Program-made: the position numbers and the translations under genes
The notes under the pieces: generated by a model
What the model was told of the DNA's origin: nothing
Database searches by the model: none
What the model saw: the letters and a program-made list of their open reading frames with translations, nothing else
In this document: positions 20,308 to 52,108 of the stretch, in pieces
How positions within the stretch are numbered: the first letter of the stretch is position 1
Layout: the number at the start of each line of letters is the position of its first letter
Assembly: GCA_039654915.1 (NCBI GenBank)
Contig: CM077596.1
Location: forward strand, 76,943,751-77,007,750
DNA from: Aquilaria yunnanensis
Lineage: Eukaryota; Streptophyta; Magnoliopsida; Malvales; Thymelaeaceae
Direction of reading: 5' to 3'
Length of the DNA: 64,000 bases

Positions 20308-20789
20308 GTCGGACGAGATGGCAGAGAAGTGGAAATTTTTGTTGGTTGAAATACAGGCAAGAGGAACTTGATAAGAGCTGGAAGAGAAAGTTTCTTTTCT
20401 TGGTACGGAGTGGCAGGTCGTGAGTGAGAAAACAACGTTACGACTAGCTCTGCCTTAATTGGGAGGACCGGTTTACTCGGAGGGAACTAATTCAAAGGCT
20501 AACCATGACAAATGATACAACTAGTTTTTTTGGTTTAATTGCTAATACATCTCATAGTGGAGTTATTGCGTCCATCATTGTGGATGCCCCATACCACATG
20601 GAACTCTAACGTTGTTAACATTAAATGGATAAAATAATTTTTTTAATTTTTAAAATTTTTTATTAATTTGAGAGATAATTATAATATTTTGTAGGTAGGA
20701 GATTTTGTATAATAAAATCTCTTGATTCAAATTAATTTCAATTTCTCAACTCAAATACTCTTTTAATATTCTAGCCAACATCGACCAAT

Positions 20790-31099: not shown

Positions 31100-33066
31100 T
31101 TTTTTTGTCTTACATATGCATACTTTCACTGCCTCGGGTGTCAATCTTGATTATTTGTTCAATATTACCTATTTTTTTTGCATTAAACGCTGCTTCATAT
31201 GCTAAAGTAAGGATCGAAACAGTAAGAATCTTCTGTGCAATTATCGATAAGATCAGAAACCTTGATTGTTTTTTGTTTCCATCACTCCAATATGTCAATG
31301 TCGCTTGGCTTGAACGATGCGTTGAGGTAGTCATCAATTTCAGCTAAACCCGAAGTCATTGGTCGGGGATGCTTCAACATTTGGAAGGTCGGGTTGAATA
31401 TTGATAAAATTGATCTCCTAGGAGGCTCGGTTTGAGGAGTTTCAGAGATCTTACCTTATTTGAATACTGCTCACAATATAACTTGTATAAAGAATACAAT
31501 TACTTAGAAGTAGTAGCAGACATGACCAAAACATTTATAGGAGACATTTCTAAATAAATATGATAAATGTCTCCAAGTAATGTCGACATGCCTGTCAATT
31601 TGATACATGGATCAAGCAAAGAAGCAACTAAAAAGATAGAGGGAATGTTTTTGAAATATTAAATCTACTTAGCCCAAATGGCTTTAATAGTTGATTTAAA
31701 AAACTTATCATTTTTAAACTGATATAAAACATATGTAATGTTCACTAAACGAATCAAAACTTGATGAACGGTTAGGTAGCAAACATCGGAGAAAAATTCA
31801 GTTGCCTCATAAAAAAACTTAAGCAATTCATCAGTTTTAGAACCTTTTTCCCAGACTTCAATCGTAAAAAGTTCACATCCCATCTTTATGTTTATAAAAT
31901 GTACGAATATGCATATTGTAACATCAAATAAGTAGAGTTCCAGTGGGTTAGACAACCTAATTTAAACTTTTTTCAAGAAAAATGGTTTTTTATTTTCAAA
32001 ATAAAACCTTTTGGATTCACGAAATACAACGAGTCTTGATTTTAAAAATAACAATGAATTTCGAATAGACATAATTTCATTTTAGAGAACTTCTAAACCC
32101 TTTTGCACATGCAGGTTTAAAATGTGGCACATGCATCAAATGTAAAGAACACACCTTCAAGAGATGGTTTCAATATTTGGCTCAAAAAGTGCGCAACAAT
32201 ATCATTGTTTGAAGCATTATCAAATAAAATGTATAGGACTTTACCAGCACAATAATAATTATGTAAAGTTTCTAAAATGCAATTATATATGTAATAACCA
32301 ATATAATCAGTTTCAATGACCATAAATGACAAAATACATTTTTGCATGACCCCATTAGAATCAATCAAATAAGTAGTAACACAATAATATGATTGACCTA
32401 CAGGTGATGTCTACATGTCAGAAGTAAATGTCATACAATGATCAAGAGCAAAGAAATAGGCTTGCAAATATGATTTTTTTGTTTCAAATAGTTTAAAGCT
32501 CTCATTCCTAGCTGTTTTCCTAGAAATTTTTTTAAATATAGGGTTTAATTGTGATTTAATCTAAAGTTCTAGGTACACATTTTCAGCTTCTGAAAAAGGT
32601 TTTTCAGTAAATGTCATCTAATTTATTGTAAGTGTCATCTAATTTATTGTGCATTCTCACAAGATTGTTGATTAAATTGAAATATATTTAACTTACCGGT
32701 TGTACTTTCAAGTTGTGTTTGTCCTTCGGAACTAATAACAGCACTGAGAAAGACATTGGGATGATGATTTTCTATGTGGCGCCGCAGCGCTTTGATGCCA
32801 AAATTCTTTTTATGCACCAACTTTTTTCCGTAACATTTACATTTGTTGCACCTTGACTCTCTATCAAATAAAGCTCATAATGCTCCCAAACCCAAGTTAT
32901 TAGCCTTCAGGATTTATCTTGTTTTTGTCCTTGGGTATCCTTAGCATTGAGTTGACGGTTTGTGGACGTTAGTTGTGTTGATGGATCTCCAGCCAGTGTC
33001 ACATCCACCACTTCAACATCATCATTCAATAATTAATCATCTATACCCAAATCATAATTCGTCATT
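31100..33066 (-). pseudogene. Decayed hAT-family transposase, interrupted by the Tat element
   Basis: Minus-strand frames read hAT transposase blocks in order. A BED zinc finger is at about 32860-32770 (C-x2-C, then IKALRRHIENHH). The RNase H-like core is at about 32370-32120 (CAGKVLYILFDNASNN). LLKFFYEATEFFSD is at about 31850, and the C-terminal dimerisation block at about 31345-31120 (YLNASFKPSDIDIL, then SIIAQKILTVSILTLAYEAA). Stops and frameshifts separate them. A plausible Met start spans the target site: minus-strand ATGAC is the duplicated pentamer, followed by NYDLGIDD. Upstream sequence of the same element therefore continues after 48639. Terminal inverted repeats were not found. 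Confidence 0.8.
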
Positions 33067-35495
33067 GTTGACACCCAATTTCGTCCGGGTGTTTTAAAAT
33101 TTTAAAAAAAAAATTTATTAAAAAAAAATTAATTTTAAAAAAATATATTACTATTATTATTAAAAAAATTTAATTAGTTTAAAATATATTTTTGTTTTGT
33201 GAAAATTTGATTTAAAATGATATATGTGTAAATATGTGTATGTTTGAAATAAAATAAAATTTCATGAAAAAAAATGACAAAAAATTAAAAGTTCGAGGTA
33301 AAAATGACAAAATTGAGAAGTTTCGGGAAAAATTGACAAATTCTAAAAGTTCCAGGAGCATTTGGTAGTTTGTCACATAAAATTTTGGGCCTGCCGACGT
33401 TTCTGGGCAAAATTGACAGAAAACGACAAAATTGTCAAAATCAGAAGCTTCAGGAACTTATTCAGAGGCTGAGAGACATAAAGGACTAAAATTGTCATTT
33501 TACCAATTTAAAAGATAAGTTTGAAATTTTTTATTAATTTATCCATCAACAGTTCAGCCAAACTTCCTCTATAAATAGCCCCCCAAATTTTGTGCTGAAC
33601 ACAGAAAAAAATACATAGAAAGCTTAGAGCTCCGTTTTAAAAAATAGAAAAAATTAATGCCTTAGCCCCTGGCTCTCCTTCCTTTCTCCAGAAAATCCCA
33701 AAATTTTTTATTTTGACAGTTCGACCATCTTCTTCCTTCCATTTCCCGTGCGTTCTCTCTCTCTCTCCTCTCGTTTTCTCTCTCTTTCTCCTTCCTCTGC
33801 CGGCCGTCGCCTGCCGCCGCTCCGTCCGCGCCGCCGCCACGCCGCCGCTGCGTTCCTCCCTTGCGCCACCCTGCCCTTCCTCTTCCTCCCCTGCGCCGTG
33901 CCTGCTCCTCCCTCCTCCTCCCTCGCGTGTGCTCTGTCTCACGTTCCCAGCAAAATTCAAAATTAAAACTAAAGGGTACAACCCTTGTTTTGTCCTCTAT
34001 TGTTTTTATTTCTTTCACTTTGGTCACTAACCTTTTATTTTGTTCTTGCAGAATTAATTCCTAACTATTTTAATTTTTACTTGTTTTACTTATTTGTTAT
34101 TATTACTAACCCTTTTTTTTTTTGTTATTAACTTACTAACAACTAACTTTTAATATTATTATTGTTACTAACCTTTTAATTTTTGCATTATTACTAATTT
34201 TTATAATTGTTGTTAACAATTAATTAACTTTTTATTATTGTTATTAATTAATTAATTTAATTAACTTGACTAACTTTTTATTATTGTTGTTAATTAATTA
34301 ATTTAATTAACTTGACTAACTTTTTATTATTGTTTTTAATTAATTAATTTAATTAACTTGACTAACTTTTTATTATTGTTGTTAATCAATTAATTTAATT
34401 AACTTGACTAACTTTTTATTATTGTTGTTAATCAATTAATTTAATTAAACTTGGCTAATTTTTATTATTGTTGTTAATTAATTTAATTAACTTTGCTAAC
34501 CTTTATTATTATTTATTTTTAAAGTGGATGGCCAAAAAGCCCCACTTTATTATTATTAATTTTCCTTTATATAATTTTTTTTTAATTTAATTCACCTTTA
34601 CCCTTACTTAAATAAATAAATTAAAATTAAAAGAAGATTATTTTTTAAGCCTAATAAAAATAATTTTTTAAAAAGCCAATTATTTTATTTTTCTTTTATA
34701 AATTGAATAATTATTTAAATAATAAATAACTTTCACTAAAAAAAAACTAAAAGAAAGATAAGAAAAAGATAAGAAAGATAAGAAAAAGATAAAAAAAAAG
34801 AAAAGAAAGAAAGAAAAGATAAGAAAGATAAGAAAAAGATAAAATCAAAAAGAAAGAAAAGAAAGAAAGAAAAGAAAGAAAAGAAAGAAAAGAAAAGAAA
34901 GTGTAAAGAATAAAAAATAAATTTTTTAGATTATTAATAAATCTAAAAACAAAAGACTTACAAATTAGTAATAATAAATTCCATAAAAATAATAATTATA
35001 TAACTAACAATTAATTAAAGTAATTTCCATATCCAGATGATCCAGCAGGATCTACGGTTTGGAAAATATCAAACTTTCAAAATAAATAAATTAAATAAAA
35101 AGATAAAAATCCATATTTTTACGATATGGATTAAAATTTTCACCAAATTCCGTGTCCAAATGACTCGGCAGAGTCCATGGTTCGGAATCAAATCTTCCGT
35201 GTCCAAATGACTCGGTAGAGTCCATGGTTCGGAAGTATAAAATTCTATACAAATTAACTTAAAAATCCACATTTCGACTAATTCAGTTAAAATTTCTAAA
35301 TTAACTGAAAATTATTTAAAAGCAAAGTAAAACAAAATTAAAATCAACTAAGGTGCCAATTTTGGGCGCTATAACAATATTGTTTTAGCGTAACCGTACT
35401 CCCGATCCCCGAACTCTCGCAGACCAATTTTAAGGTGACCAATCGACCTAAGAAAACTGATTGGTGGCGACTCCAGAAAACCCGACGTTGCCACA
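33067..35495 (+). repeat. 5' LTR of the Tat-like element
   Basis: Begins TGTTGACACCC and ends CGTTGCCACA. It contains a likely TATA box (tataaatag at 33570-33578), a C/T-rich then GC-rich block (33740-33925) and about six copies of a 46-bp AT-rich unit (34229-34500). A GA-rich run (34740-34905) and two copies of gtccaaatgactcgg(c/t)agag (35150-35230) follow. Frames in the GC block are compositional and are not called as genes. Confidence 0.95.
33570..33578 (+). promoter_or_regulatory. TATA box of the 5' LTR
   Basis: tataaatag followed about 25-30 bp later by gctgaacacag, a plausible start region for the genomic transcript. The same site recurs in the 3' LTR at about 46686-46694. One base just upstream differs (cctctataaa versus catctataaa). 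Confidence 0.6.
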
Positions 35496-35498
35496 GCT

Positions 35499-35518
35499 TG
35501 GCGACTCCACTGGGGACC
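35499..35518 (+). other. Primer-binding site (tRNA-Arg type) of the Tat-like element
   Basis: tggcgactccactggggacc starts three bases after the LTR. It matches the type of PBS described for Ogre/Tat elements, complementary to the 3' end of a tRNA-Arg. Unlike the PBS of the old Athila-like element it looks undamaged. Confidence 0.75.
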
Positions 35519-36489
35519 CTGGTTAGTGAGTCAAGCCTAAAACTTGATTTGTTTTGTTTTGCTTTTTGCTTCTTTTTATGTGGATTTTTATATGTTATAT
35601 TTACTTATTCTAAACATGCATAATGCATTCACAATATGAAGCTCTATACCCGAGCTTCTTCAAAGCGAACACGTTCTTTCTAAGCGGAATTGGTGTTGTT
35701 GTCCTTGAGAGGCCATGGTCTCTAAGCCTTCACCGGTTTCAAAGTAGCAAAGTAGTGTATTGCCTTCTGAGACGGTTAGTCTCTGCATGGGCCCACGAAA
35801 AGCTACGACTCGAATTAATCCATTCCTTACATTAACCCTAGAGGGTAAGGAATCGGGCCGTCACTATGATTTAGTGACGGGATTCGGGAACTATCCCTTG
35901 CTTTTTTGATAAACCACCTTATGCATATAGAACTCCCCACTTAACCATAGAACTGACCATAGAATTTCTACCATTTTACCAACGCCATAAGCATATCCTT
36001 GTTATGCTATGTTGTTACTCTACACTTTTCTTCGTATGGTTTTAACTTGTTTATCCATAATAGTTCATGAGTTGTTAATTGTTATTTAACTTATTAATAA
36101 CCTTATCTTTCTTTTCTTGTACTTCTGTTTTGTGCAATTACTCTTCATACATCAAAACCACGCATTAAACTTTGCTAACTTTTTGGTCTTTCTAATGACA
36201 ACTAGAAGTCTTGAAGTTCCACGATAATGGATAATCAAATTCACTCATCGCATACATCCATTACATTAATCACGTGTATATAAAGTCTGATAAAAACATA
36301 ATCTCATTGCACACATCCATTACATTAATCACGTGCATGTAAAGTCTGATAAAAACATAATCTCATTTTGCATACATACATCCATCACATCAGTCATATA
36401 CACATAGAATCTAATAAAATAAATCTTACTTTAAAAAGGGTAAAATTGGACCTCAACACCGATATTCAACCCGGCTCCAAACAAGATTA
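35519..36489 (+). other. Leader of the Tat-like element with a ~60-bp tandem repeat
   Basis: An untranslated leader between PBS and gag. At 36245-36425 three copies of a ~60-bp unit occur (catccattacattaatcacg, then taaagtctgataaaaacata); the third is diverged. No gene is supported; the frames at 35435-35835 are short. Confidence 0.7.
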
Positions 36490-37386
36490 ATGGCAGAACA
36501 AGCCGAAGGACGTCTCATAGAGATGGAGTCAAAGATAGAAAGTATGGCCGAACAAATGAGACAATTGATCGAGCTAATCAAGGCGAAAGCAATTCAAGAA
36601 GCACAAGTTCAGCCACCCATGACAGAAAGAGAAATGGTCACTTTGTTTGTCCAGACACTGAAGTACCTATATTATGACGAACTCATTGGCAATTCGGCAA
36701 CTAATTTTTCTAATATTGTCATGTCTAGAGAAAGAATCGAGCGTGAGATTAGGACTGGGAATATTGCTGAATCCTTTAATAATCCTATGAAAAGAGGAGG
36801 ACCATCCAGAAGAAAAGATGACGAAGTACAACAAATAGGACGCGGAAGAAGGATTCCCCTCGTGGATACTGTGGCTATCGGACCTCGCCTATCCTATTTT
36901 GCCAATGGGCCCGATAATTACCTTCCAAATAGGCCCAATGATTATCCTCTGAATAGGCCCAATAATTATCCTCCAAATAGGCCCAATGATTATCCTTCCA
37001 ATAGGCCCAACAATTATCCTTTTAACAGACCTAATCAGTCATGGCCACCTGCTCCTACTCCTCCAGTACCTGCACCAAGACCAAGAGAAGTTTTCACACC
37101 AATTTCCATGACTTATACTGAGTTATACCCAAAACTCATCGAAAGACAATTTATCCGTCCAATTCCTACAAAGCCATTCAAACCCCCATATCCAAGGTGG
37201 TATGACCCTAACATTACCTGCCCATATCATGATGGCGTTCCAGGCCATGGCTTGGAAAACTGCATGGCATTGAAGCGTATAGTTCAACAATTAATCGAGT
37301 CAAAGTGGTTGGACTTTTCCGATGAGCCAAATGTCACCCACAATCCATTGCCGCCTCATCAAGCAAAACCAAGTCCAAGTTGCTAG
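36490..37386 (+). CDS. Tat-type gag, internally shortened
   Basis: An uninterrupted 298-codon frame. The N-terminus (about 1-35, RLIEMESKIESMAEQMRQL) is a coiled-coil-like heptad stretch. From residue about 42 it reads VQPPMTEREMVTLFVQTLKY and NFSNIVMSRERIEREIRTG, which in Tat gag proteins lie after the main retrotrans_gag domain. The C-terminal part has YPKLIERQFIRPIP, PPYPRWYDPN and the Tat signature C-x2-YH-x4-GH-x3-NC (CPYHDGVPGHGLENC). Between them is a (Y/N)-P-(P/L/S)-NRPN repeat at about 143-178. About 100-150 residues of capsid domain seem to be missing between the coil and VQPPMTERE. Family comparison is from memory of the lineage. It may bind RNA without forming a normal particle. 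Confidence 0.8.
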   Translation: MAEQAEGRLIEMESKIESMAEQMRQLIELIKAKAIQEAQVQPPMTEREMVTLFVQTLKYLYYDELIGNSATNFSNIVMSRERIEREIRTGNIAESFNNPMKRGGPSRRKDDEVQQIGRGRRIPLVDTVAIGPRLSYFANGPDNYLPNRPNDYPLNRPNNYPPNRPNDYPSNRPNNYPFNRPNQSWPPAPTPPVPAPRPREVFTPISMTYTELYPKLIERQFIRPIPTKPFKPPYPRWYDPNITCPYHDGVPGHGLENCMALKRIVQQLIESKWLDFSDEPNVTHNPLPPHQAKPSPSC

Positions 37387-40060
37387 GCCCGATGTGATTG
37401 ATAACTGAAAAGTGAAGATTTCGAGCTAGAATTACATTGACTTTGGAAGGCCTCCAAGTCAGATCTGACCTAACAGTCCGCATACATTTTCGAATGACAG
37501 GGAATCCTTTGAATAAACTTGTATCTTTGAAAGCTTGCAAAAGTAATTTAATAGTAAAAATCTCCTAGATTTAGTCCAGAATCTAGGGTGTAGTCTTTGT
37601 TAAATGGACACCTGCTATTCTTTTTCTGGTACAACAAAAAGATGTGATGCGTGCATTCTACTACTTTCCATTTTTACACTCTTTGCCATTATACTATCCA
37701 TTATTGCTATCACACTTTACTTTTTCGACAACCGGTAATTCTTTTTGTTCTCTAACAAAAAGATGTTGCGTGTGCATTCTACCACTTTTTAATTCCATTA
37801 TTACATCTACACATTCTACCAATTTTTACCAAAAATTCAATTATTACACCTACACATTCCACCACTTCTTACCAAAAATTCCGCTTTTACATCCATCTCT
37901 CACTTCTTTCCATTATACTATCCATTATTGCCATCATACTTTGCTTTCTAAATGATACTACTCGTGGGTGAAAATAAAAAGTTAAGGAAAATTTGATAGT
38001 AGTGATCTTGAAAGTGCTGCCAAATCTAATAAGAAGGATTTCAAACGTTGCACCTCAACCCTCAAAAGGAATTCACAGTGGTTATCAACATCCTTGCAAG
38101 AAGTCCGGGGTTAGCTTCCAAATCCAAAGAAGTTAGCTCTCATATTAAATGGCTTTAATGGTCTCTCAATTCTCATGAATGCTCAACACAAGCAAAGGTT
38201 CTCAGTTCTCTGCAACACAAACTCCAAAAAGAAAGAGAAATTCGTCCCTTCCATCAAAAGACAACAAGGGGAAATTCAAAACCAAAAAAGGACTGAGAAC
38301 AAGCACAAGCAAGCAAGGCCATTTGAGTCATCTCACTTCAAGAGAGTTATCAAGTATGTCATCACCATAGCTCACAAAAAAAAAAAAAAAAGGGAAACAA
38401 AGAAAAAAAAAAAGAAAAGAAAAGAAAAAAGGGCTTAAGTTAGAGCAAAAGAAAGAAAACAAAAAGTGAGCTATGGATTCTAGACTGAAAACCTGCAAAG
38501 GCGGTTTAGAACACAAAAGCAATCCTCAAACCAAGCATGCATAAAGATCACAATAGTTGGGGGGGCAACAGATAAGGTCTAACTTTCTGGAAAGAGTGGC
38601 AAATTGAGGTCATCACTATTGAGTTTTTCACCATAATCAAATTTGCCCACGAGTAGTATTAAAAGACCATTCTCCCACACCACTTAAACTTAACTTTCCT
38701 CAGACTGAACATCCTCATTCAGTTAAAAGACTATCATTGTGAATCATGTTTCAACCTTATTTAATACTGCTCACGAGTAGTATTAAAAGACCATTCTTTC
38801 ACACCACTTAAATTTAACTTTCCTCAGACCTAACATCCTCATTCAGTTAAAAGACTATCATTGTGAATCATGTTTCTACCTTATTTAATACTGCTCACGA
38901 ATAGTATTAAAATACCCTTCTTTCACACCACTCAAACTTAACTTTACTCAGACCTAATATTTACCTCTTAATATTATTCTCATTCAGCTAAAAGACTGCC
39001 ACAAAAAAAAATATTCAAACTTAACTTTCCTCACACCTAATATTTACCTCTTGATATCATCCGCATTCAGCTAAAAGGCTATCATTCTGAATCATGTTTC
39101 TACCTTATTGCATTGCACAGTTTATGTCTTCGAGTTGGAAAAGAGAAGAATGACAGGATATTTTAATTAAAAACAAAGACCGTAAATTACTTTGTCAAGC
39201 TTTGCAAATTGATGAAAGTTTTTCTTTAACGCCAAACCATTATTCATTAATGTATGTAGACTTAAAAGTGAGGAGATAGCTTGAGTCTTTCTTTAATAAG
39301 ATGTGGTTCTTGTAAGAGAAATTTACGATCAAGTGCCAGCACAAAGGTCTAGAAATGCTCGACCTTCTGTTAAATTAAAGGCGAGATGATACCTTTCATC
39401 CACATAAATACCATATTCAGGGGGGCAAAGTAGTCTCTACGAAGCGTAAGAGGAGTACTGCCAACAAAGAAGTTCAATAGACAAGGGGGCAAGTCTTATG
39501 GATCAAAACTTGAGCTCAAGGAAGAGCAATCATTCAGATTATAACATGGGGATAAGTAAGTGTCGGCACGGCTACAAGAAAATGGGCAAAGCAGACATTG
39601 AAAGTAAAGCCTTTGATGGTATCAAATCCATGACAATGGATGAGTACCCGAAAGAGATATAAATTATGAGGCGGGCCAACTTTAAAGAAATTGAGGCCAA
39701 AATTCAAGAACAAGTCAAAGAAAGGGGATTTTGAAAAGAGTTGGGCTTTTGAGGCAGCGAACAAAAGCTGGAAAGCATAAAGAGATTCAATGATAGTCCA
39801 AGAAGGCCATCACAAAGAGGATCCAGTAAAACAAAGACATAAAGAACTAGATCCATACAAAAAAAGCCATTAGTTACACATGCTCTGCATTCATGCATTT
39901 CATATCATGCATACATAGCCTTTACATAACAAGGACCAAACGGGAATCACATTCACAGCACAGTTACAGCAGTATAAGCTGAGATCTCAATGTCATCAGT
40001 TCTTACCAATCTATCACTGGATACACAGCTAATATGCGGGACCAACCCGCATCAGGAATT
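37387..40060 (+). other. Gag-to-ORF stretch of the Tat-like element, repeat-rich, no pol
   Basis: This is where pol would be expected, yet no protease, RT, RNase H or integrase block can be read in any frame. It holds scattered cattatactatccattattg repeats (37680-37940), an A-rich run (38370-38450) and a ~120-bp tandem array (38640-39110). Three G-rich, PPT-like stretches also occur (ttgggggggcaac at 38558, caggggggcaaag at 39419, caagggggcaag at 39484). It resembles duplicated 3' untranslated sequence of a Tat element. Confidence 0.6.
38640..39110. repeat. ~120-bp tandem repeat, about 3.5 copies
   Basis: The units share cacgagtagtattaaaagac, cacaccactta and attcagttaaaagactatca, then ttatttaatactgct. 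They start near 38648, 38771 and 38895, with a shorter diverged unit after 39005. Confidence 0.85.
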
Positions 40061-40067
40061 CAAGGAT

Positions 40068-40465
40068 AAAGTAGACAATATTGTCAAAAGCTTCGCTACC
40101 GATTCAATAATCGGGGCTACACCTGGAAGGATCGGACTGACGCCAGCTAGTAGTATCCAAGATAAGAGATAGCTATAGCCAAGGATAAGGCAGATATAAA
40201 AAAATATATATATATAAAATAGACAATATTGTTAAAAGCCTGGCAATCGATTCAATAATCGAAGCCACACCTGGATGGACAGAATTGACGTCAGCTTAGC
40301 GGTATCAAAGATAAGAAATAGCTATGGTCAAAGATAAGCGCGGATATCGAGAAATATTGTCGTCGAAAGCAGACAATGGATTCAATAATTAAGAACTGGA
40401 TCAATGTCATGCCTGATGAGACATCAAAGATAAGAAATATCTATGATACAAAAATAAAGTAGGAT
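40068..40465. repeat. Tandem ~150-bp repeats with TGACG motifs upstream of ORF copy 1
   Basis: Three units start at about 40070, 40220 and 40367. They share tagacaatattgt(c/t)aaaag, gattcaataatcg and caaagataagaaatagctat; the third is shortened. The first two carry tgacgcc and tgacgtca, TGACG-type motifs bound by plant TGA bZIP factors. Their position suggests an upstream control region for the first cassette, though I see no TATA box before that ORF. Confidence 0.6.
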
Positions 40466-40580
40466 CCACTTTTCCGGTTAAGCGGCGGATACGGTACTCC
40501 GTGACTCTCAAGTCGGTTCTCTCAGTTGCCCATAATAACTGATCCTTTCCTCCCTCCTTTCTTTTACTTTCTCCTAGGAA

Positions 40581-41129
40581 ATGGATCCTACTTTTTCTGC
40601 CTTGCGAAAATATTTTCCTTTTCTCCCAATGAACATCCTCAAAAAGATCTACCAAGTTCGTTGTGAACGATTAAGAGCTCTGATGCATAAAAGAATCCCT
40701 GAAGATGTGCGGTGGTTAATTGAAGCTAAGGTTCGTCTGGCAGGTGAAATCCCAGAGGCATTTGTGTCTCACATGCCTGGTGTAGGCAAAAGCTCTTATG
40801 CCAAAAAGCGAAGAACGAGGAGACTAGGCGTCTGTCATAAATGCGGACGCTGGACCTGTAATACTAAATGTCGTTCTTTAGGGATGATCTCTAATAATCG
40901 AGAAGATAAAATACGATTCATTAAGAATGGCCTGAGTAAGGACTCATTGGATGATATCCAATTGACTCTTGAGACGCATTCTTGTGGATCCGTGCAACGT
41001 GAACTTCTCGATTTATGGAGCATTTTTCATGAAGAACGAGAACGATACAGTCCCGGGAATCTGACGTTAAACGACCCTATTTGCCAGCTTGTAAGAAAAC
41101 TGGATGGGAAGCAAATCCTCGACTCATAG
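40581..41129 (+). CDS. Cys-rich basic protein, cassette copy 1 (carlavirus NABP-like motif)
   Basis: An open frame of 182 codons. Residues 74-81 (AKKRRTRR) form a strongly basic, nuclear-localisation-like block. Cys85, Cys88, Cys93 and Cys97 follow as C-x2-C-x4-C-x3-C, a probable zinc site. Cys135 is also conserved in the next copy. The order G-K-S-x-Y-A-K-(K/R)-R-R then C-x2-C resembles the small cysteine-rich nucleic-acid-binding proteins of carlaviruses (Pfam Carla_C4), several of which are reported to suppress RNA silencing or alter host transcription. The N-terminal ~65 and C-terminal ~85 residues resemble nothing I know. It lies on the element's sense strand and shares 68% identity with copy 2. 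The viral link is inference from a motif; a standalone plant or retroelement zinc-knuckle protein is the alternative. Confidence 0.75.
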   Translation: MDPTFSALRKYFPFLPMNILKKIYQVRCERLRALMHKRIPEDVRWLIEAKVRLAGEIPEAFVSHMPGVGKSSYAKKRRTRRLGVCHKCGRWTCNTKCRSLGMISNNREDKIRFIKNGLSKDSLDDIQLTLETHSCGSVQRELLDLWSIFHEERERYSPGNLTLNDPICQLVRKLDGKQILDS

Positions 41130-41375
41130 AAGCCGTTAATCCCATTACTGGACGTAAAACCAGTGGAAGATGTGAGCCACAGTCACAATCACTGTACATA
41201 CAATTTATCATATTTAAAATTTTCCATTTTTCTTTTAATAATGTATTTGCTCCCGTAAGTGTAATCGACACGTTATCCATTTCATCGCTATAAATGCATG
41301 TTCTTCCAGTCGGTTATCTAAGTTTCCTTCAATAACTAATTCCTTTCCATCATCTCTCAAATTCTTCTCTCATCA
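41130..41375 (+). promoter_or_regulatory. Intercassette module 1 with TATA box
   Basis: Contains ccattactggacg, cagtggaagatg, cagtcac...actgtac, a t-rich aaaattttcc block, ataatgta and tgtaatcgacac-ttatcc. TATAAA is at 41289-41294, 87 bp before the next ATG. The same landmarks recur after copy 2 and copy 3, so each downstream ORF has its own promoter-like module. Confidence 0.6.
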
Positions 41376-41924
41376 ATGGATTCTACTCTTTCTACCCTGC
41401 GAAAATACTTTCCTTCTCTTCCAATAAAAGTCCTTAAAAAGATCTACCTTGCTAGATGTGAAAGAATCAGAGTTTTTACACGCAAAGACATTCCCGATAA
41501 TGTGCAGTGGATAATTGAAGCTAAGGTCCGTTTGGCGGGTGAAGTTCCAGATGCATTTATGTCCCGCATGCCCGGTCTAGGTAAAAGCCGTTATGCCAAA
41601 AGGCGAAGAGCAAAGAGACTAGGCGTGTGTTATAAATGTGGGCGATGGAATTGTAATACTAAATGTCGCTCTTTAGGATACATCTCCATAAATCGTGAAG
41701 ATAAAAGAAAATTCATTAAGAATGGCCTGCGTAAGGAATCTCTGGAAGATATCCGAGAGACTCTTGAAACGCATTCTTGTGGAAAAGTGCAAGGTCAAAT
41801 TGTCAAATTGTGGAGGACTTACCATAAAGATCGAGACCGTTACAGTCTTGGGAATGTGACTGTAAACGACCCTGTCTACCAGCTTGTAAGAAAACTGGAT
41901 AGGAAGCAAGTCCTCGACTCATAG
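41376..41924 (+). CDS. Cys-rich basic protein, cassette copy 2
   Basis: A 182-codon open frame the same length as copy 1 with no gap between them. I count about 58 differing residues, so identity is about 68%. Conserved are the LAGE(I/V)P block, the MPG(V/L)GKS motif, the basic run (AKRRRAKR at 74-81), Cys85/88/93/97, THSCG with Cys135, and NDP(I/V)-x-QLVRKLD near the end. Cys28 is also shared. Many changes are conservative (I/V, D/E, K/R). Equal length and conservation of every key residue at this divergence argue that both copies were kept functional for a long time. Likely a nucleic-acid-binding, possibly nuclear protein; function unproven. Confidence 0.75.
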   Translation: MDSTLSTLRKYFPSLPIKVLKKIYLARCERIRVFTRKDIPDNVQWIIEAKVRLAGEVPDAFMSRMPGLGKSRYAKRRRAKRLGVCYKCGRWNCNTKCRSLGYISINREDKRKFIKNGLRKESLEDIRETLETHSCGKVQGQIVKLWRTYHKDRDRYSLGNVTVNDPVYQLVRKLDRKQVLDS

Positions 41925-42140
41925 AAGGCATTGAAGCCATTACTAGATATAAATCAGTGGAAGATGAGAGCCACAGTCATGATTGCTGTACATATAAGCT
42001 GTCATTTGTCTTTTCTTTTGACAATAATGTACTTGCTTCTGTAAGTGTAATTAACGCATTATCCCTTTCATCACTATAAATATGTGTTAGTTATTTTCGT
42101 TTCCTACAATCACTAATTTCTTTCTTTGCCTCCTTCATCA
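41925..42140 (+). promoter_or_regulatory. Intercassette module 2 with TATA box
   Basis: Homologous to 41130-41375: gccattactag, cagtggaagatgagagccac, gctgtacata, ataatgtacttgct, tgtaattaacgcattatcc. TATAAA is at 42075-42080, 66 bp before the ATG of copy 3. Confidence 0.6.
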
Positions 42141-42688
42141 ATGGAGTCTTCTCTTTCCGCTACGAAAGTATTTTCCTTCCTTCCCAATAAATGTTCTTAA
42201 AAAGATTTATCAAGCTAGATGTGAACGATTCAGAGTATTTATGCACAAAGGCATTCCTGATAATGTGCGGTGGCTAATTGAAGCTAAGGTTCGTTCAGCT
42301 GGTGAAGTTCCAGAAGCGTTCTTTCCCCGTATGCCCGGCTTTGGTAAAAGCGCTTATGCCAAAAAAAAGAAGAGCAAAGAGGCTAGGCGTTTGTCATAAT
42401 TGTGGATGGTAGATTTGCGGCAATAAATGTCGTTCTCCAGGAGTGATCACCAGAAATCGTAATGATAGAATAAGATTCATTAAGAATGGCTTGCGTAAGG
42501 AATCTCTAGAAGATATTCGAGAGGTTCTTGAAGCGCATTCTTGCGGAATAGTGCAATTTGAGGTTGTTGGATTATGGATAATTTTCCAAAAAGAACGAGA
42601 TCGTTACAGTCTTGGGAATCTGACCCTAAATGACCCTGTTTGCCAGTTTGTGAGAAAGCTAGATGAGATGCAAATCACCGATTCATAG
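42141..42688 (+). pseudogene. Cys-rich basic protein, cassette copy 3, broken
   Basis: It aligns to copies 1 and 2 from start to stop with a net loss of one base. A small deletion near codon 8 shifts the frame. An expanded A run near 42362 shifts it again in the basic block. A TAG replaces a codon in the Cys cluster at about 42409-42411. From 42443 the last 81 codons are open and match the C-terminal third (EDIREVLEAHSCG, NDPVCQFVRKLD). No complete protein can be made from it as it stands. Confidence 0.8.
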
Positions 42689-43188
42689 AAAGCATTGAAG
42701 CCATTACTGGACGCAAAGCCAGTGGAAGACGAGGATCAAAGTCACGATTACTGTACGTACTAGCTGTCGCTTTTGAAATTTTCCTCCTCTTTCAGCGATA
42801 ATGTATCCACTCCTGACATGAGCCATAGTCACGATTACTGTACGTGTTAGCTGTCGCTTTTGAAATTTTCCTCCCCTTTGGCAATAATGTACCCACTCCT
42901 GACACGGACTACTGTATATAGCTGCCACTTTTGAAATTTTCCTTCTCTTCCAACAATCACGTACCTACTCCTGACGTAAGCTACAGTAGTGACTACTGTA
43001 CATGCTAGCAGGTATTTTGAAAATTTTCCTCCTCTTTTAACGATAGTGTACCCATACCTGACCAGAGTCATACTCGTGACTACTGTGTATAGCTGGCAAT
43101 AATGTATCCACTCTTGAAAATAAAATTATTGCCTTATCTCTTCATCTCTATAAATATATCCTCTTTTCTTACAAGGATAAAGATAGGA
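42689..43188 (+). promoter_or_regulatory. Expanded promoter-like module upstream of the LOG-like gene
   Basis: This begins like modules 1 and 2 (gccattactggacgcaaagc, cagtggaagac), then one part is repeated about five times with a 75-86-bp period (units from about 42731, 42817, 42898, 42973 and 43058). Each unit carries (g)actactgta or gattactgtac, tagctg, ttttgaaattttcctcc and acccactcctgac. One unit contains tgacgtaagc, close to the TGACG half-sites of plant stress and viral promoters. TATAAA is at 43149-43154, 40 bp before the LOG-like ATG. Confidence 0.6.
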
Positions 43189-43818
43189 ATGGAGAAAACC
43201 CCAACTCGTAAATCCCAAAGTATTTGTGTATTTTCTGGGGCTTTTCCTGGAAAAGATGAAGAGTATTTAAAAGCAGCCAACCATTTGGGTAGAATATTAG
43301 CTGAGCAAAAAATACATTTAGTTTATGGAGGAGGTAGTGTCGGATTAATGGGAGGTGTAGCATCAGCAGCATCTCTAGGAGGAAGTCAAGTTCTGGGCAT
43401 TATCCCTGGACCTCTGAAATTTATTTCTGGGGGCACGATTGGAGAAGAATTAGTGGTTAAAAATTTGCAAGAGCGTGTGTTATAAATGCTTTTAAATGCT
43501 GATGCTTTTATCGCTCTACCAGGTGGTTTTGGTACATTAGGAGAAGTCTTTCAAATTGCTTCCATGACCCAACTTAATTTGCATAAGAAACCCATTGGGC
43601 TTTTGAATGTTAACAATTTCTTTACAGGTCTGATAGCTTTTATGGATTATGCTATGCAGAAGAATTTCATATCAAGAGTGGCACGGCGAATTATAATATC
43701 CGCAACAACTGCTGAAGAATTGCTAGATAAAAAACAAGTTTTTGTTCCTGAACCAGATCCAGCAATGATTCAGATAGACTGGACACGACAGTCTTTCCCG
43801 ACCAGTTCACTCCCATAA
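43189..43818 (+). pseudogene. Intronless LOG-like gene (cytokinin riboside 5'-monophosphate phosphoribohydrolase), one in-frame stop
   Basis: LOG enzymes release active cytokinin bases from cytokinin nucleotides. From the ATG at 43189 the frame encodes 98 residues, a TAA at 43483-43485, then 110 more codons in the same frame; about 208 residues suits the family. Visible are the Rossmann start (SICVFSGAFPGK, 11-22), LVYGGGSVGLMGGVASAA (44-61), VLGIIPGPL (68-76) and the LOG signature PGGFGTLGE (111-119). NLQERVL-stop-M sits where relatives have the MHxRKxxM motif: its arginine is kept, its lysine is V, and its glutamate codon has become TAA. Plant LOG genes normally have several introns, so this looks like a captured mRNA copy. 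An in-frame Met at 43102 lies in the promoter module and is not preferred. Two separate half-proteins are possible but unlikely to be active. Confidence 0.88.
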
Positions 43819-44340
43819 TGGTCCTCTACTCACCTTGTTGAAGTATTGTGGAAGAAAGAAGCGATCTGATCCGTTTTTCTTGTCCTTTAGTTTTATTATC
43901 AGCATTTTCTTTCGCGTTTCAGTTTTTCTTTTCAGGGAATTTCTTTTTTTTTATAATATAGTTTCGTCCATGCTGATATTAAAACCATAGGACAATGCCT
44001 TTAGGTTGGAATGGCTGAGTAAAGAGTAATTTTTGTTACTCTTGAGACGCATCCTATTAGGTCTACTAGGCATAACATTTTGGGGTAGTTAAGCTTTAAC
44101 CTTATTCGGATGACATATCTCACAAGGGAATCTATATTTACTGAAGAAAATATTAGATGAACCTTGAATATTGATTCCAAACATCCGTTCCATTTACATA
44201 ATTTGTCAGTGTTATTGTCATCATCAAGATTCACTCGTTTTATCGAAGCCTAATTCTTTGCGCTCGCCAATTATGAAAATTCACACTTTCGAAGAAAATT
44301 ATTCCAATTTCAATTGCTTTCATATAAATTTCGCTCGAGG
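43819..44340 (+). other. Spacer between the LOG-like gene and the satellite array
   Basis: AT-rich with no supported gene. The first ~150 bp may be the 3' untranslated part of the LOG-like transcript (tttatttttct-rich, poly-T run at 43946). Confidence 0.5.
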
Positions 44341-44342
44341 TC

Positions 44343-44360
44343 CTAAGGAAAGCTCCTTAG
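44343..44360. other. Hairpin at the left edge of the satellite array
   Basis: ctaagga-aagc-tccttag: a 7-bp perfect stem with a 4-base loop, immediately before the first repeat unit. A stronger hairpin lies at the other edge (46024-46047). Confidence 0.6.
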
Positions 44361-44370
44361 CCTCAAAATC

Positions 44371-46012
44371 AATTTTCAACATCGGGGTTTTAAGGATGGA
44401 ACCTTTGCCTCGAAAATAATCAATTTTCATCATCGGGGTTTTAAGGATAGAACCTTTGCCTCGAAAATAATCAATTTTCATCATCGGGGTTTTAAGGATG
44501 GAACCTTTGCCTCGAAAACAATCAATTTTCATCATCGGGGTTTTAAGGATGGAACCTTTGCCTCGAAAATAATCAATTTTCATCATCGGGGTTTTAAGGA
44601 TGGAACCTTTGCTTCGAAAATAATCAATTTTCATCATCGGGGTTTTAAGGATGGAACCTTTGCCTCGAAAATAATCAATTTTCATCATCGGGGTTTTAAG
44701 GATGGAACCTTTGCCTCGAAAATAATCAATTTTCATCATCGGGGTTTTAAGGATGGAACCTTTGCTTCGAAAATAATCAATTTTCATCATCGGGGTTTTA
44801 AGGATGGAACCTTTGTCTCGAAAACAATCAATTTTCATCATCGGGGTTTTAAGGATGGAACCTTTGCCTCGAAAATAATCAATTTTCATCATCGGGGTTT
44901 TAAGGATGGAACCTTTGCCTCGAAAATAATCAATTTTCATCATCGGGGTTTTAAGGATGGAACCTTTGCCTCGAAAACAATCAATTTTCATTATCGGGGT
45001 TTTAAGGATGGAACCTTTGCCTCGAAAATAATCAATTTTCATCATCAGGGTTTTAAGGATGGAACCTTTGCCTCGAAAATAATCAATTTTCATCATCAGG
45101 GTTTTAAGGATGGAACCTTTGCCTCGAAAAGAATCAATTTTTATCATCGGGGTTTTAAGGATGGAACCTTTGCCTCGAAAACAATCAATCAATCAATCCG
45201 AGGTTTTAAGGATGGAACCTTTGCCTCGAAAACAACCAATTTTCATCATCGGGGTTTTAAGGATGGAACCTTTGCCTCGAGATCAATCAATCAATCCAGG
45301 GTTTTAAGGATGGAACCTTTGCCTCGAGATCAATTATCAATCCGAGGTTTTAAGGATGGAACCTTTGCCTCGAAAACAATCAATTATCAATCCGAGGTTT
45401 TAAGGATGGAACCTTTGCCTCGACATCAATTAATCAATCCGGGGTTTTAAGGATAGAACCTTTGCCTCGAGATCAATCAATCAATCCGAGGTTTTAAGGA
45501 TGGAACCTTTGCCTCGAGATCAATTATCAATCCGAGGTTTTAAGGATGGAACCTTTGCCTCGACATCAATCAATCAATTCGAGGTTTTAAGGATGGAACC
45601 TTTGGCTCGACATCAATCAATCAATCCGGGGTTTTAAGGATGGAACCTTTGCCTCGAGATCAATCAATCAATCCGGGGTTTTAAGGATGGAACCTTTGCC
45701 TCGAGATCAATCAATCAATCCGGGGTTTTAAGGATGGAACCTTTGCCTCGAGATCAATCAATCAATCCGAGGTTTTAAGGATGGAACCTTTGCCTCGAGA
45801 TCAATCAATCAATCCGAGGTTTTAAGGATGGAACCTTTGCCTCAAGATCAATCAATCAATCCGAGGTTTTAAGGATGAAACCTTTGCCTCGAAAACAATC
45901 AATTTTCATTCATCGGGGTTGTAAGGATGGAACCTTTGCCTCGAAATCAATCAATCAATCCGAGGTTTTAAGGATGGAACCTTTGCCTCGAAAACAAATA
46001 ATCAATCAATTA
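44371..46012. repeat. Satellite-like array, ~33 units (51 bp, then ~46-50 bp)
   Basis: About 33 head-to-tail units share ggttttaaggatggaacctt then tgcctcga. The first ~16 units have a 51-bp period (spacer aaaataatcaattttcatca); later ones have ~46-50-bp periods with gatcaatcaatcaatcc spacers. Since 51 bp is 17 codons, the minus strand stays open at 45192-44320 as a 290-codon frame repeating KIDYFRGKGSILKTPMM. I regard that frame as a by-product. Tandem repeats in the 3' untranslated part of Ogre/Tat elements are known and can seed satellites. Confidence 0.95.
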
Positions 46013-46023
46013 GTCCATCTTAC

Positions 46024-46047
46024 AACGATAGGAGCTTTCCTATCGTT
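46024..46047. other. Hairpin at the right edge of the satellite array
   Basis: aacgatagga-gctt-tcctatcgtt: a 10-bp perfect stem with a 4-base loop, directly after the last complete repeat unit. Confidence 0.7.
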
Positions 46048-46169
46048 AGAGGTTTTAAGGACCTTTCTTTAAACCTTACTGTTTGGGCGGCGAGAAGATT
46101 CTCAATGCCTACCTAAGCCGGACGAAATTTGGTAATGACTTTGCATACATCATGTCCCATGAAGCATGC

Positions 46170-46182
46170 AAAGGGGGGCAGC
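46170..46182 (+). other. Polypurine tract of the Tat-like element
   Basis: aaaggggggcagc abuts the TG of the 3' LTR. It looks intact and fits the position for plus-strand priming. Confidence 0.85.
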
Positions 46183-48634
46183 TGTTGACACCCAATTTCG
46201 TCCGGGTGTTTTAAAATTTTAAAAAAAAATTTATTAAAAAAAAATTAATTTTAAAAAAATATATTACTATTATTATTAAAAAAATTTAATTAGTTTAAAA
46301 TATATTTTTGTTTTGTGAAAATTTGATTTAAAATGATATATGTGTAAATATGTGTATGTTTGAAATAAAATAAAATTTCATGAAAAAAAATGACAAAAAA
46401 TTAAAAGTTTGAGGTAAAAATGACAAAATTGAGAAGTTTCGGGAAAAATTGACAAATTCTAAAAGTTCCAGGAGCATTTGGTAGTTTGTCACATAAAATT
46501 TTGGGCCTGCCGACGTTTCTGGGCGAAATTGACAGAAAACGACAAAATTGTCAAAATCAGAAGCTTCAGGAACTTATCCAGAGGCTGAGAGACATAAAGG
46601 ACTAAAATTGTCATTTTACCAATTTAAAAGATAAGTTTGAAATTTTTTATTAATTTATCCATCAACAGTTCAGCCAAACTTCATCTATAAATAGCCCCCC
46701 AAATTTTGTGCTGAACACAGAAAAAAATACAGAGAAAGCTTAGAGCTCCGTTTTAAAAAATAAAAAAAATTAATGCCTTAGCCCCTGGCTCTCCTTCCTT
46801 TCTCCAGAAAATCCCAAAATTTTTTATTTTGACAGTTCGACCATCTTCTTCCTTCCATTTCCCGTGCGTTCTCTCTCTCTCTCCTCTCGTTTTCTCTCTC
46901 TTTCTCCTTCCTCTGCCGGCCGTCGCCTGCCGCCGCTCCGTCCGCGCCGCCGCCACGCCGCCGCTGCGTTCCTCCCTTGCGCCACCCTGCCCTTCCTCTT
47001 CCTCCCCTGCGCCGTGCCTGCTCCTCCCTCCTCCTCCCTCGCGTGTGCTCTGTCTCACGTTCCCAGCAAAATTCAAAATTAAAACTAAAGGGTACAACCC
47101 TTGTTTTGTCCTCTATTGTTTTTATTTCTTTCACTTTGGTCACTAACCTTTTATTTTGTTCTTGCAGAATTAATTTCTAACTATTTTAATTTTTACTTGT
47201 TTTACTTATTTGTTATTATTACTAACCCTTTTTTTTTTTTGTTATTAACTTACTAACAACTAACTTTTAATATCATTATTGTTACTAACCTTTTAATTTT
47301 TGCATTATTACTAATTTTTATAATTGTTGTTAACAATTAATTAACTTTTTATTATTGTTATTAATTAATTAATTTAATTAACTTGACTAACTTTTTATTA
47401 TTGTTGTTAATTAATTAATTTAATTAACTTGACTAACTTTTTATTATTGTTGTTAATTAATTAATTTAATTAACTTGACTAACTTTTTATTATTGTTGTT
47501 AATCAATTAATTTAATTAACTTGACTAACTTTTTATTATTGTTGTTAATCAATTAATTTAATTAAACTTGGCTAATTTTTATTATTGTTGTTAATTAATT
47601 TAATTAACTTTGCTAACCTTTATTATTATTTATTTTTAAAGTGGATGGCCAAAAAGCCCCACTTTATTATTATTAATTTTCCTTTATATAATTTTTTTTT
47701 TAATTTAATTCACCTTTACCCTTACTTAAATAAATAAATGAAAATTAAAAGAAGATTATTTTTTAAGCCTAATAAAAATAATTTTTTAAAAAGCCAATTA
47801 TTTTTATTTTTCTTTTATAAATTGAATAATTATTTAAATAATAAATAACTTTCACTAAAAAAAACTAAAAGAAAGATAAGAAAAAGATAAGAAAGATAAG
47901 AAAAAGATAAGAAAGATAAGAAAAGGATAAAAAAAAAAGAAAAGAAAGAAAGAAAAGATAAGAAAGATAAGAAAAAGATAAAATCAAAAAGAAAGAAAAG
48001 AAAGAAAGAAAAGAAAGAAAAGAAAGAAAAGAAAAGAAAGTGTAAAGAATAAAAAATAAATTTTTTAGATTATTAATAAATCTAAAAACAAAAGACTTAC
48101 AAATTAGTAATAATAAATTCCATAAAAATAATAATTATATAACTAACAATTAATTAAAGTAATTTCCATATCCGGATGATCCAGCAGGATCTACGGTTTG
48201 GAAAATATCAAACTTTCAAAATAAATAAATTAAATAAAAAGATAAAAATCCATATTTTTACGATATGGATTAAAATTTTCACCAAATTCCGTGTCCAAAT
48301 GACTCGGCAGAGTCCATGGTTCGGAATCAAATCTTCCGTGTCCAAATGACTCGGTAGAGTCCATGGTTCGGAAGTATAAAATTCTATACAAATTAACTTA
48401 AAAATCCACATTTCGACTAATTCAGTTAAAATTTCTAAATTAACTGAAAATTATTTAAAAGCAAAGTAAAACAAAATTAAAATCAACTAAGGTGCCAATT
48501 TTGGGCGCTATAACAATATTGTTTTAGCGTAACCGTACTCCCGATCCCCGAACTCTCGCAGACCAATTTTAAGGTGACCAATCGACCTAAGAAAACTGAT
48601 TGGTGGCGACTCCAGAAAACCCGACGTTGCCACA
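46183..48634 (+). repeat. 3' LTR of the Tat-like element
   Basis: Nearly identical to 33067-35495. Its extra length comes mostly from one additional gaaagataagaaaaagataa unit and homopolymer changes. It is followed directly by the target duplication gtcat. Confidence 0.95.
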
Positions 48635-48639
48635 GTCAT

Positions 48640-51349: not shown

Positions 51350-52108
51350 AAAAATTACTTTAACGAAATAGACGAGTGTACCGTACGAGGGAATACCAAT
51401 GGAGTGTCACATCGGCGCAGCCTTTTAATCCTCGCCTGTTCGGAACCTTCGAACTGGCCAATGCAGCTTCGTCACCTCAATTCTTAGAATCCTATTTTCT
51501 CAACCACCTGGCGCCACGTGTCTGAAAGAGCATTAAAGTATTAGCCCTTCTGAGAAAATGCCAGAAGATTTCGAATGCATGATACAATGCGTACGCCATC
51601 CACCAGTGAATCCCACTCCCGCAAGTTCACTTTTTCGGTTTTTCCAATCATAAATAACGGCAAGGAAAAAAAAAGTGTAAAAGGAGCAAGAGACAAAGTG
51701 AAAAATACTTGCAAAGCAGAAAAAGGAAATAGAAACCGATGGAAACTCTAATCTGGTAAATCAGAATACCAGTATTTTGAGACCTAAATCCCTCGAGATC
51801 TCCGTAGTTATCACTCGACTTGTTAAAGTCATCAAATCCAACGGTAGAAACAAACAGAGAGTTTCTTATTTTGTGAGGGGAAGGAGTTTGTAATAAAACC
51901 CCAGTCTCACCCATTTCCTTCTGACTCTGTCTGTGTCACAGTCCTCTTTCTATCTCAGTCTCTATCTCTGTCTCCCAAACACTAACTCTGTCTCTCACTC
52001 TCTCTCGACTTCGACCTCTCTCTGTTTCATTCTCTTCTTTTATCGTTTTCTTGCAGTTTGATGTCTTGGACTTTGACCGAGTTTTGACTCTTGCCCCGGT
52101 GAGCTCCA
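51350..52108 (+). promoter_or_regulatory. Promoter and pyrimidine-rich leader of the CRK gene
   Basis: A G-box CACGTG lies at 51515-51520 within gcgccacgtgtc. The 150 bp before the ATG are very rich in CT (tctctatctctgtctcccaa, ctctctctcgacttcgacct), typical of plant 5' leaders. No clear TATA box was found; the transcript start is probably near 51900-51960. Confidence 0.45.

Follow-up and report, generated by a model that had tools for sequence, protein, structure and literature searches.

We analysed a 64-kb stretch of the Aquilaria yunnanensis genome (842-Mb assembly, 345 contigs), hereafter the window, and all coordinates given without a contig are positions within it. The window contains a 15.6-kb long terminal repeat (LTR) retrotransposon at 33066-48634, flanked on both sides by the target site duplication gtcat. 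The element carries a cassette made up of three tandem genes for flexivirus-type nucleic-acid-binding proteins (NABP) and one LONELY GUY (LOG) gene, arranged as follows:

33061 to 33065: left target site duplication gtcat, repeated at 48635-48639
33066 to 35495, plus strand: 5' LTR, TGTTGACACC...GTTGCCACA, 2430 bp
35499 to 35518, plus strand: primer binding site (PBS), starting 3 nt past the 5' LTR
36418 to 37386, plus strand: gag remnant with an open frame of 322 codons, lacking most of the capsid part
40581 to 41129, plus strand: NABP1, 182 aa, open; Pfam matches to Viral_NABP (4.9e-06) and Carla_C4 (7.8e-06)
41376 to 41924, plus strand: NABP2, 182 aa, open; Pfam match to Viral_NABP (1.5e-08); TATAAAT box at 41289
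42141 to 42689, plus strand: NABP3, frame-disrupted, with an internal stop; TATAAAT box at 42075
43189 to 43818, plus strand: LOG (PF03641, Lysine_decarbox) with an undamaged PGGxGTxxE motif and a single in-frame stop; TATAAAT box at 43149
44367 to 45997: tandem array of ~47/51-bp units
46170 to 46182, plus strand: polypurine tract AAAGGGGGGCAGC, directly adjoining the 3' LTR
46183 to 48634, plus strand: 3' LTR, 2452 bp
48635 to 48639: right target site duplication gtcat

An earlier, sequence-only reading of this stretch had described a young LTR element with a complete set of terminal features. All of them were located, and the two LTRs differ by 11 substitutions over 2428 aligned sites and by six gap events (Kimura two-parameter distance 0.0045), which at the substitution rates we assume corresponds to an age of ~0.17-0.32 Myr. 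The PBS presumably matches the 3' end of a plant tRNA-Arg, one of the tRNAs used by non-chromoviruses; no tRNA gene that could be its partner was found in the window. The same reading had noted the lack of reverse transcriptase (RT) and integrase, which Pfam and tblastn both bear out. With stops masked, no pol domain was detected by Pfam in the three plus-strand frames of 35498-40577 (a scan that also failed to flag the gag remnant) or in the three minus-strand frames of 37387-40577, and tblastn with the RT-RNase H and additional RNase H-integrase pieces of a related copy against 33001-43900 gave no pol match, only gag. The minus strand of 37387-40577, which lies upstream of the cassette and bears on the question of an antisense TRP28 as in Retand elements, had no Pfam match of any kind.

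The cargo had been called viral-like and hormone-related, in agreement with its domain matches. NABP1 and NABP2 exceed the curated Pfam cut-offs for Viral_NABP and Carla_C4, while the scanned piece of the window's NABP3 had no Pfam match. The LOG gene (209 codons) passes the cut-off for Lysine_decarbox and has the PGGxGTxxE motif and the catalytic Arg and Glu. The announced four accessory reading frames and satellite array are thus present as three NABP genes, LOG and the array, but the sequence-only reading did not note that NABP3 and LOG are broken here and that the residual gag has lost most of its capsid part.

The origin of this arrangement becomes clearer from the regions upstream of the cassette in 12 elements (the window element and 11 taken from a genome-wide list of NABP2 matches, all on the plus strand). 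RT and integrase are present in one of them, at C5:79.89-79.92 Mb, where the order is DUF7745 pieces, Retrotrans_gag with G-patch, RVT_1 with RNase H, RVT_3, integrase, NABPs and LOG. The three NABPs of this copy are open, its LTR ends and 18-nt PBS are like those of the window element (the first 18 nt of the window PBS are identical in it), and the window's gag remnant aligns to its gag only from capsid-probe residue 96 on. A second RNase H lies between RNase H and integrase (RVT_1 and RNase H in piece L046, RVT_3 then integrase in piece L055), an Ogre/Tat arrangement. The 5' open reading frame (ORF) matches DUF7745 (3.2e-37), which we take to be akin to the plant mobile domain, in two pieces parted by a stop. 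The cassette of three NABPs and LOG therefore follows integrase in a pol-bearing copy and occurs in several pol-less kinds as well, so that pol was deleted and the cassette retained; the proposal that the cargo had replaced pol does not hold. We consider that the young window element probably belongs to a family of Ogre type (Tat, Ty3/gypsy), in which it is one of several pol-deleted forms. The autonomous partner suggested by the sequence-only reading has a counterpart in this copy as far as LTR ends and PBS go, but we claim no activity for it, as the usual start is missing from its LOG and a stop interrupts its 5' ORF. Its LTR portions differ at 59 of 2835 sites (the start of the 5' LTR lay outside the compared part).

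No RT or integrase was found in the examined sequence of the other 11 elements (tblastn, E up to 1e-6), the region from gag/pol to the cassette being covered without gaps in eight (window, C2, C6:28.1, C4:93.6, C3:15.07, C3:18.1, C7:4.3 and C8:2.48) and in part in three (C5:94.36, C27 and C3:27.05). Their retained gag/pol sequence ends at three different points:

Junction after the gag tail: window, C5:94.36, C2
Junction in the protease region: C3:15.07, C3:18.1, C3:27.05, C7:4.3, C8:2.48, C4:93.6
Junction early in the gag tail: C6:28.1, C27

Three distinct end points argue that pol was lost more than once, or that cassettes were shifted between backbones by recombination.

Genome-wide, the NABP2 list comprises the best 150 of 8304 candidates, and a second list, obtained with the foreign relative P0004, the best 150 of 8236; the lists overlap partly in elements, and as the best-scoring part both favour intact copies. 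All NABP2 matches listed have at least 94% identity and 144 of them lack stops, as do 142 of those listed for P0004. At the 30 loci fetched from the NABP2 list (L001 being the window element), at least three NABP matches were found in every case and a LOG match in 29, the exception being L014. The search for the same ORF order that had been advised thus returned many copies, and the cargo is not unique to the window copy, the finding that would have spoken against the sequence-only reading. Open frames were counted for NABP1 at 26 loci, for NABP2 at 30 (for which the loci were selected), for NABP3 at 24 and for the examined part of LOG at 27, with the placement of LOG in L014 unsure; L013 has no NABP1-type copy in the stretch examined. 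One of the six loci fetched with P0004 (L064) has two NABPs followed by LOG. The copy on C2 is pol-less and has the window layout including the gag deletion, with four open cassette genes and LTRs identical over their first 1300 bases. At C4:62.49 Mb (L013/L014), two NABP2 copies lie 1.7 kb apart, which suggests a further NABP duplication inside one element.

Relatives of the NABP genes are found in other plants, the named ones being from Xanthoceras, Populus, Rhamnella, Citrus and Acer. Viral_NABP matches 116 and Carla_C4 110 of the 136 aligned relatives (E up to 0.001; best 5.7e-09), and the finger spacing in the family alignment is C-X2-C-X4-C-X3-C. Scans of IMG/VR with the NABP sequence and with an alignment (A1) found no relatives. 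Gene models of Rhamnella (P0056) and Citrus (P0067 and P0076) fuse NABP-like and LOG-like parts, and the pairing is therefore probably not peculiar to A. yunnanensis; the NABP part of P0056 rests on a precomputed domain and a phmmer match and is unlisted in the Pfam scan, and the domains of both Citrus models score under the curated cut-offs. Several NABP and LOG matches are on contigs of equal length (8723, 4511, 2128 and 1386 bases), which hints that they may share a contig. Another Rhamnella model, P0046, joins an apparent integrase C-terminus, recognised by eye, to a NABP part, the latter alone being confirmed by Pfam.

The LOG gene was compared with the best 120 of 7839 matches among 7999 scored candidates, picked for likeness to the window. 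Residue roles were taken from the LOG of Corynebacterium glutamicum, for which the portion of the report drawn on here gives Arg99 and Glu122 as catalytic and places Lys100 in the adenine/prenyl pocket (PMC4979012). Among these 120 relatives, Arg99 is present in 115 and Glu122 in 117, while Lys100 is lost in 116 and Glu125 in 115. The two losses go together: 115 of the 116 proteins without Lys100 also lack Glu125, and all four with Lys100 retain it. Other pocket residues are kept to varying degrees (Glu121 in 114, Trp129 in 116, Met96 in 90 and His97 in 62). In the window LOG all six adenine/prenyl-pocket residues are changed (M96L, H97Q, K100V, E121G, E125Q and W129M). The relatives surveyed appear to be retrotransposon genes, judging by their multiplicity (e.g., a 37-row clade is entirely from Reevesia). 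We infer that the LOG of the family is a nucleotide hydrolase of altered specificity, which would have kept hydrolysis and act on another substrate. In three Xanthoceras gene models (P0093, P0094 and P0149), which contain two LOG-like units or parts each, both the lysine and the glutamate of the pocket are retained; in a tree whose outgroup consists of only two host LOGs, these models are placed outside the main clade formed by the LOG relatives.

TATAAAT boxes lie 87, 66 and 40 bases upstream of the start codons of NABP2, NABP3 and LOG. The sequences upstream of NABP2 and NABP3, each reaching back into the end of the NABP gene before it, are 78% alike over 575 bases. Immediately ahead of LOG, 65 bases resemble the corresponding stretch of NABP3 (73.8%, E 2e-6). 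Between NABP3 and LOG, further copies of the spacer that follows a NABP gene match the NABP2 and NABP3 upstream regions at 77-80% over 179-218 bases; these blocks sit ~380-600 bases before LOG and correspond to that spacer, not to the TATA-bearing part. Where the start of the gene was located by exact match (among 30, 30 and 11 loci, respectively), the box is present in 24 of 24 copies for NABP2, 28 of 28 for NABP3 and 11 of 11 for LOG. We propose these upstream stretches as candidate internal promoters of the three genes.

The ratio of nonsynonymous to synonymous divergence (dN/dS) was calculated for copies sampled by NABP similarity, only open and gap-free ones being used. It is 0.22 for NABP1, 0.27 for NABP2 and 0.28 for NABP3 (19, 19 and 20 distinct sequences, respectively; up to 120 sampled pairs). 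For LOG it is 0.19 among eight open copies; of the ten LOGs fetched, three that lacked a full-length open frame from the usual start were excluded, and the window LOG was unused. Between two groups of NABP1 sequences the ratio is 0.15 (36 pairs, 2 by 18 sequences), only two of the six loci fetched with P0004 having an open NABP1 with the expected start. Differences among open copies are thus mostly silent (dN/dS 0.15-0.28), and both NABP and LOG look constrained. Between the window element and C2, NABP1 has dN 0.025 and dS 0.238; the values for NABP2 (0.014 and 0.042), LOG (0.013 and 0.035) and the gag remnant (0.017 and 0.026) rest on 11 to 17 differences.

How such an element could persist may be sketched as follows. 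We infer from structure that relatives which have pol, and whose LTR ends and PBS are the same, supply the machinery that mobilises the pol-less forms, so the movement in trans suggested by the sequence-only reading is probably right. The cassette genes could be expressed from their own TATA promoters (NABP2, NABP3 and LOG) or from the LTR transcript. Proteins of the NABP class are described as silencing suppressors and regulators in the portion of PMC8839810 used here. Like their carlavirus counterparts, the NABPs of the family may be nuclear proteins that bind nucleic acid, with element RNA or silencing as their target; by blunting silencing of the element or boosting transcription they would increase the output of all family members. 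LOG would act as a hydrolase on a nucleoside monophosphate; with its catalytic pair kept and its adenine/prenyl pocket changed, this is probably a different one from the usual cytokinin precursor. We speculate, tentatively, that a eudicot Ogre family possesses a conserved module of three flexivirus-type NABPs and a specificity-changed LOG with promoters of their own, which the family shares for counter-defence or transcription. Pol would have been lost repeatedly while the module was kept, and pol-less copies would supply helper functions in a division of labour with pol-bearing elements.

A number of observations weigh against this account. The sampling for dN/dS favours intact copies. When the window's three NABPs are compared pairwise, with the disrupted NABP3 aligned to NABP1 and NABP2 and codons with gaps or stops removed, dN/dS is 0.44, 0.34 and 0.22, with a third-position excess. 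Between the window element and C2 the ratio is only 0.34 for NABP2 and 0.36 for LOG, on 11 differences each. The spacers of these two copies differ by 0.5-0.8% while NABP1 dS is 0.24; the cassette is therefore likely a mosaic shaped by recombination, and its constraint could come from pol-bearing lineages by that route. The conserved TATA boxes say little, since the spacers of the copies are nearly identical anyway. Four loci (L001-L004, L001 being the window) have an identical NABP3 disruption and in the L003 copy the LOG (L033) has the stop of the window LOG; these copies were amplified nonetheless, so an intact cassette is not needed in cis. The case for mobilisation in trans is itself structural. 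As for NABP, the finger of the jasmine virus C carlavirus has the form C-X2-C-X12-C-X4-C in the portion of PMC8839810 used here, a carlavirus spacing that the family protein does not have, and it is therefore classed as NABP-like rather than as a carlavirus NABP. Its AlphaFold model is weak (pLDDT 69.5, first model 55), and a BFVD structure search returned no match at E 0.001, all E values being above 0.04. Even so, the best 23 rows of that search comprise 20 flexivirus proteins by virus name, 18 of them labelled as silencing suppressors or nucleic-acid/RNA-binding proteins, and three unnamed ones.

Some of these points would be expected if the cassette genes were passive passengers, functional in pol-bearing ancestors and passed on in recent versions to the pol-less copies, with the low dN/dS reflecting selection in the pol-bearing source and gene flow by template switching. 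We take this seriously, though at less than an even chance: the mosaic divergence along the cassette and the amplification of copies sharing the broken NABP3 (four of 30 loci) or the LOG stop (window and L033) fit it, whereas the open cassette frames of most copies examined, in which gag/pol ends at three places, and the low NABP1 dN relative to dS between the window element and C2, which share their gag deletion, speak against it. For LOG taken separately, an ordinary cytokinin-activating enzyme which together with a growth-promoting NABP makes a dividing-cell setting favourable to the element is unlikely; the window LOG is homologous to Arabidopsis LOG-type structures, but the residues that would bind the adenine and prenyl moieties are changed in the window and, for Lys100 and Glu125, in nearly all of the best 120 relatives. 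That the cargo was captured in this very element in place of pol, as the lack of pol in the window could have suggested, is very improbable: with the cassette after integrase in the pol-bearing copy and at least 150 scored places in each of two partly overlapping genome lists, it would stand only if that copy were a later recombinant. Still less credence can be given to flexivirus fragments integrated into an unrelated retrotransposon or to an assembly join. NABP does exceed viral Pfam cut-offs, but it is the sole virus-like part among those identified, on which ground an integrated virus was rejected, and both the host family and the Rhamnella and Citrus models have it paired with LOG. The assembly join was rejected because cassette copies occur at many other genome sites.

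The interest of the family lies in the nature of its extra genes. Accessory reading frames in plant retrotransposons tend to be recorded as being of 'function unknown', while this set has recognisable relatives, namely a class of RNA-virus proteins described as silencing suppressors and regulators and an enzyme of known mechanism with a visibly altered pocket. In a family that is abundant and was recently active, both look constrained. What accessory genes do for retrotransposons thus becomes directly testable, by standard assays of silencing suppression and of enzyme activity, and a shared protein links the RNA viruses of plants with retrotransposons.

Outside the element, the window contains a 241-bp unit in a two-copy tandem duplication, 91% alike (26516-26998), a 538-codon open frame on the minus strand (18838-20454) whose translation, by eye, looks like a bHLH transcription factor of the MYC2/JAM type, and on the plus strand (52103-52714) an apparent first exon of a CDPK-related protein kinase, also recognised by eye.

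The family resembles the Ogre clade of Tat Ty3/gypsy elements, as characterised in the portion of the survey drawn on here (Neumann 2019, PMC6317226), in large size, long LTRs, a second RNase H, an extra 5' ORF (matching DUF7745 here) and tandem arrays, each seen either in the pol-bearing relative or in the window. It differs from Ogre as characterised there in the pol-less window copy and in the three sense NABPs and LOG located after pol in the family. An extra ORF of the plant-mobile-domain kind occurs in 57% of Ogre elements. In the survey, extra ORFs were counted from a length of 250 codons upwards, so NABP (182 codons) and LOG (209) would have been missed.

The combination of genes had been thought undescribed. 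Its LOG component has a precedent: in Citrus and Populus, Gypsy elements with a YgdH/LOG domain are already known (section 12 of PMC9289625, which cites Steinbauerova 2011), RT-containing elements which resemble our family in having a LOG-type gene; NABP is unmentioned in that section and in a term search of the main text, supplements aside. We found no earlier report of a NABP gene in an LTR retrotransposon in a literature search that covered few subscription papers and no supplements. The NABPs of the family share with those of carlaviruses and other flexiviruses a basic stretch followed by a cysteine-rich finger and Pfam scores above cut-off, and differ from them in the C-X2-C-X4-C-X3-C finger, in being retrotransposon-encoded and in occurring in triplicate.

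Extra ORFs and gene transduction have been reviewed, in the part relevant here, by Vicient and Casacuberta 2020 (PMC7264820). Among particular systems, the Phalaenopsis elements with an AlkB-type RNA demethylase are likewise Gypsy elements of giant size that carry an additional gene for an enzyme, as far as the portion cited describes them (PMC9289625); the enzyme is a different one, and its biochemistry was shown there, while our case is made from sequence. Retand, in the portion of its description used here (PMC11963269), also has, in the interval from pol to the 3' LTR, accessory ORFs and tandem arrays, and it includes pol-defective copies that were recently active. Its extra ORFs are mostly antisense and include TRP28, in contrast to the sense NABP and LOG genes of the Aquilaria family.

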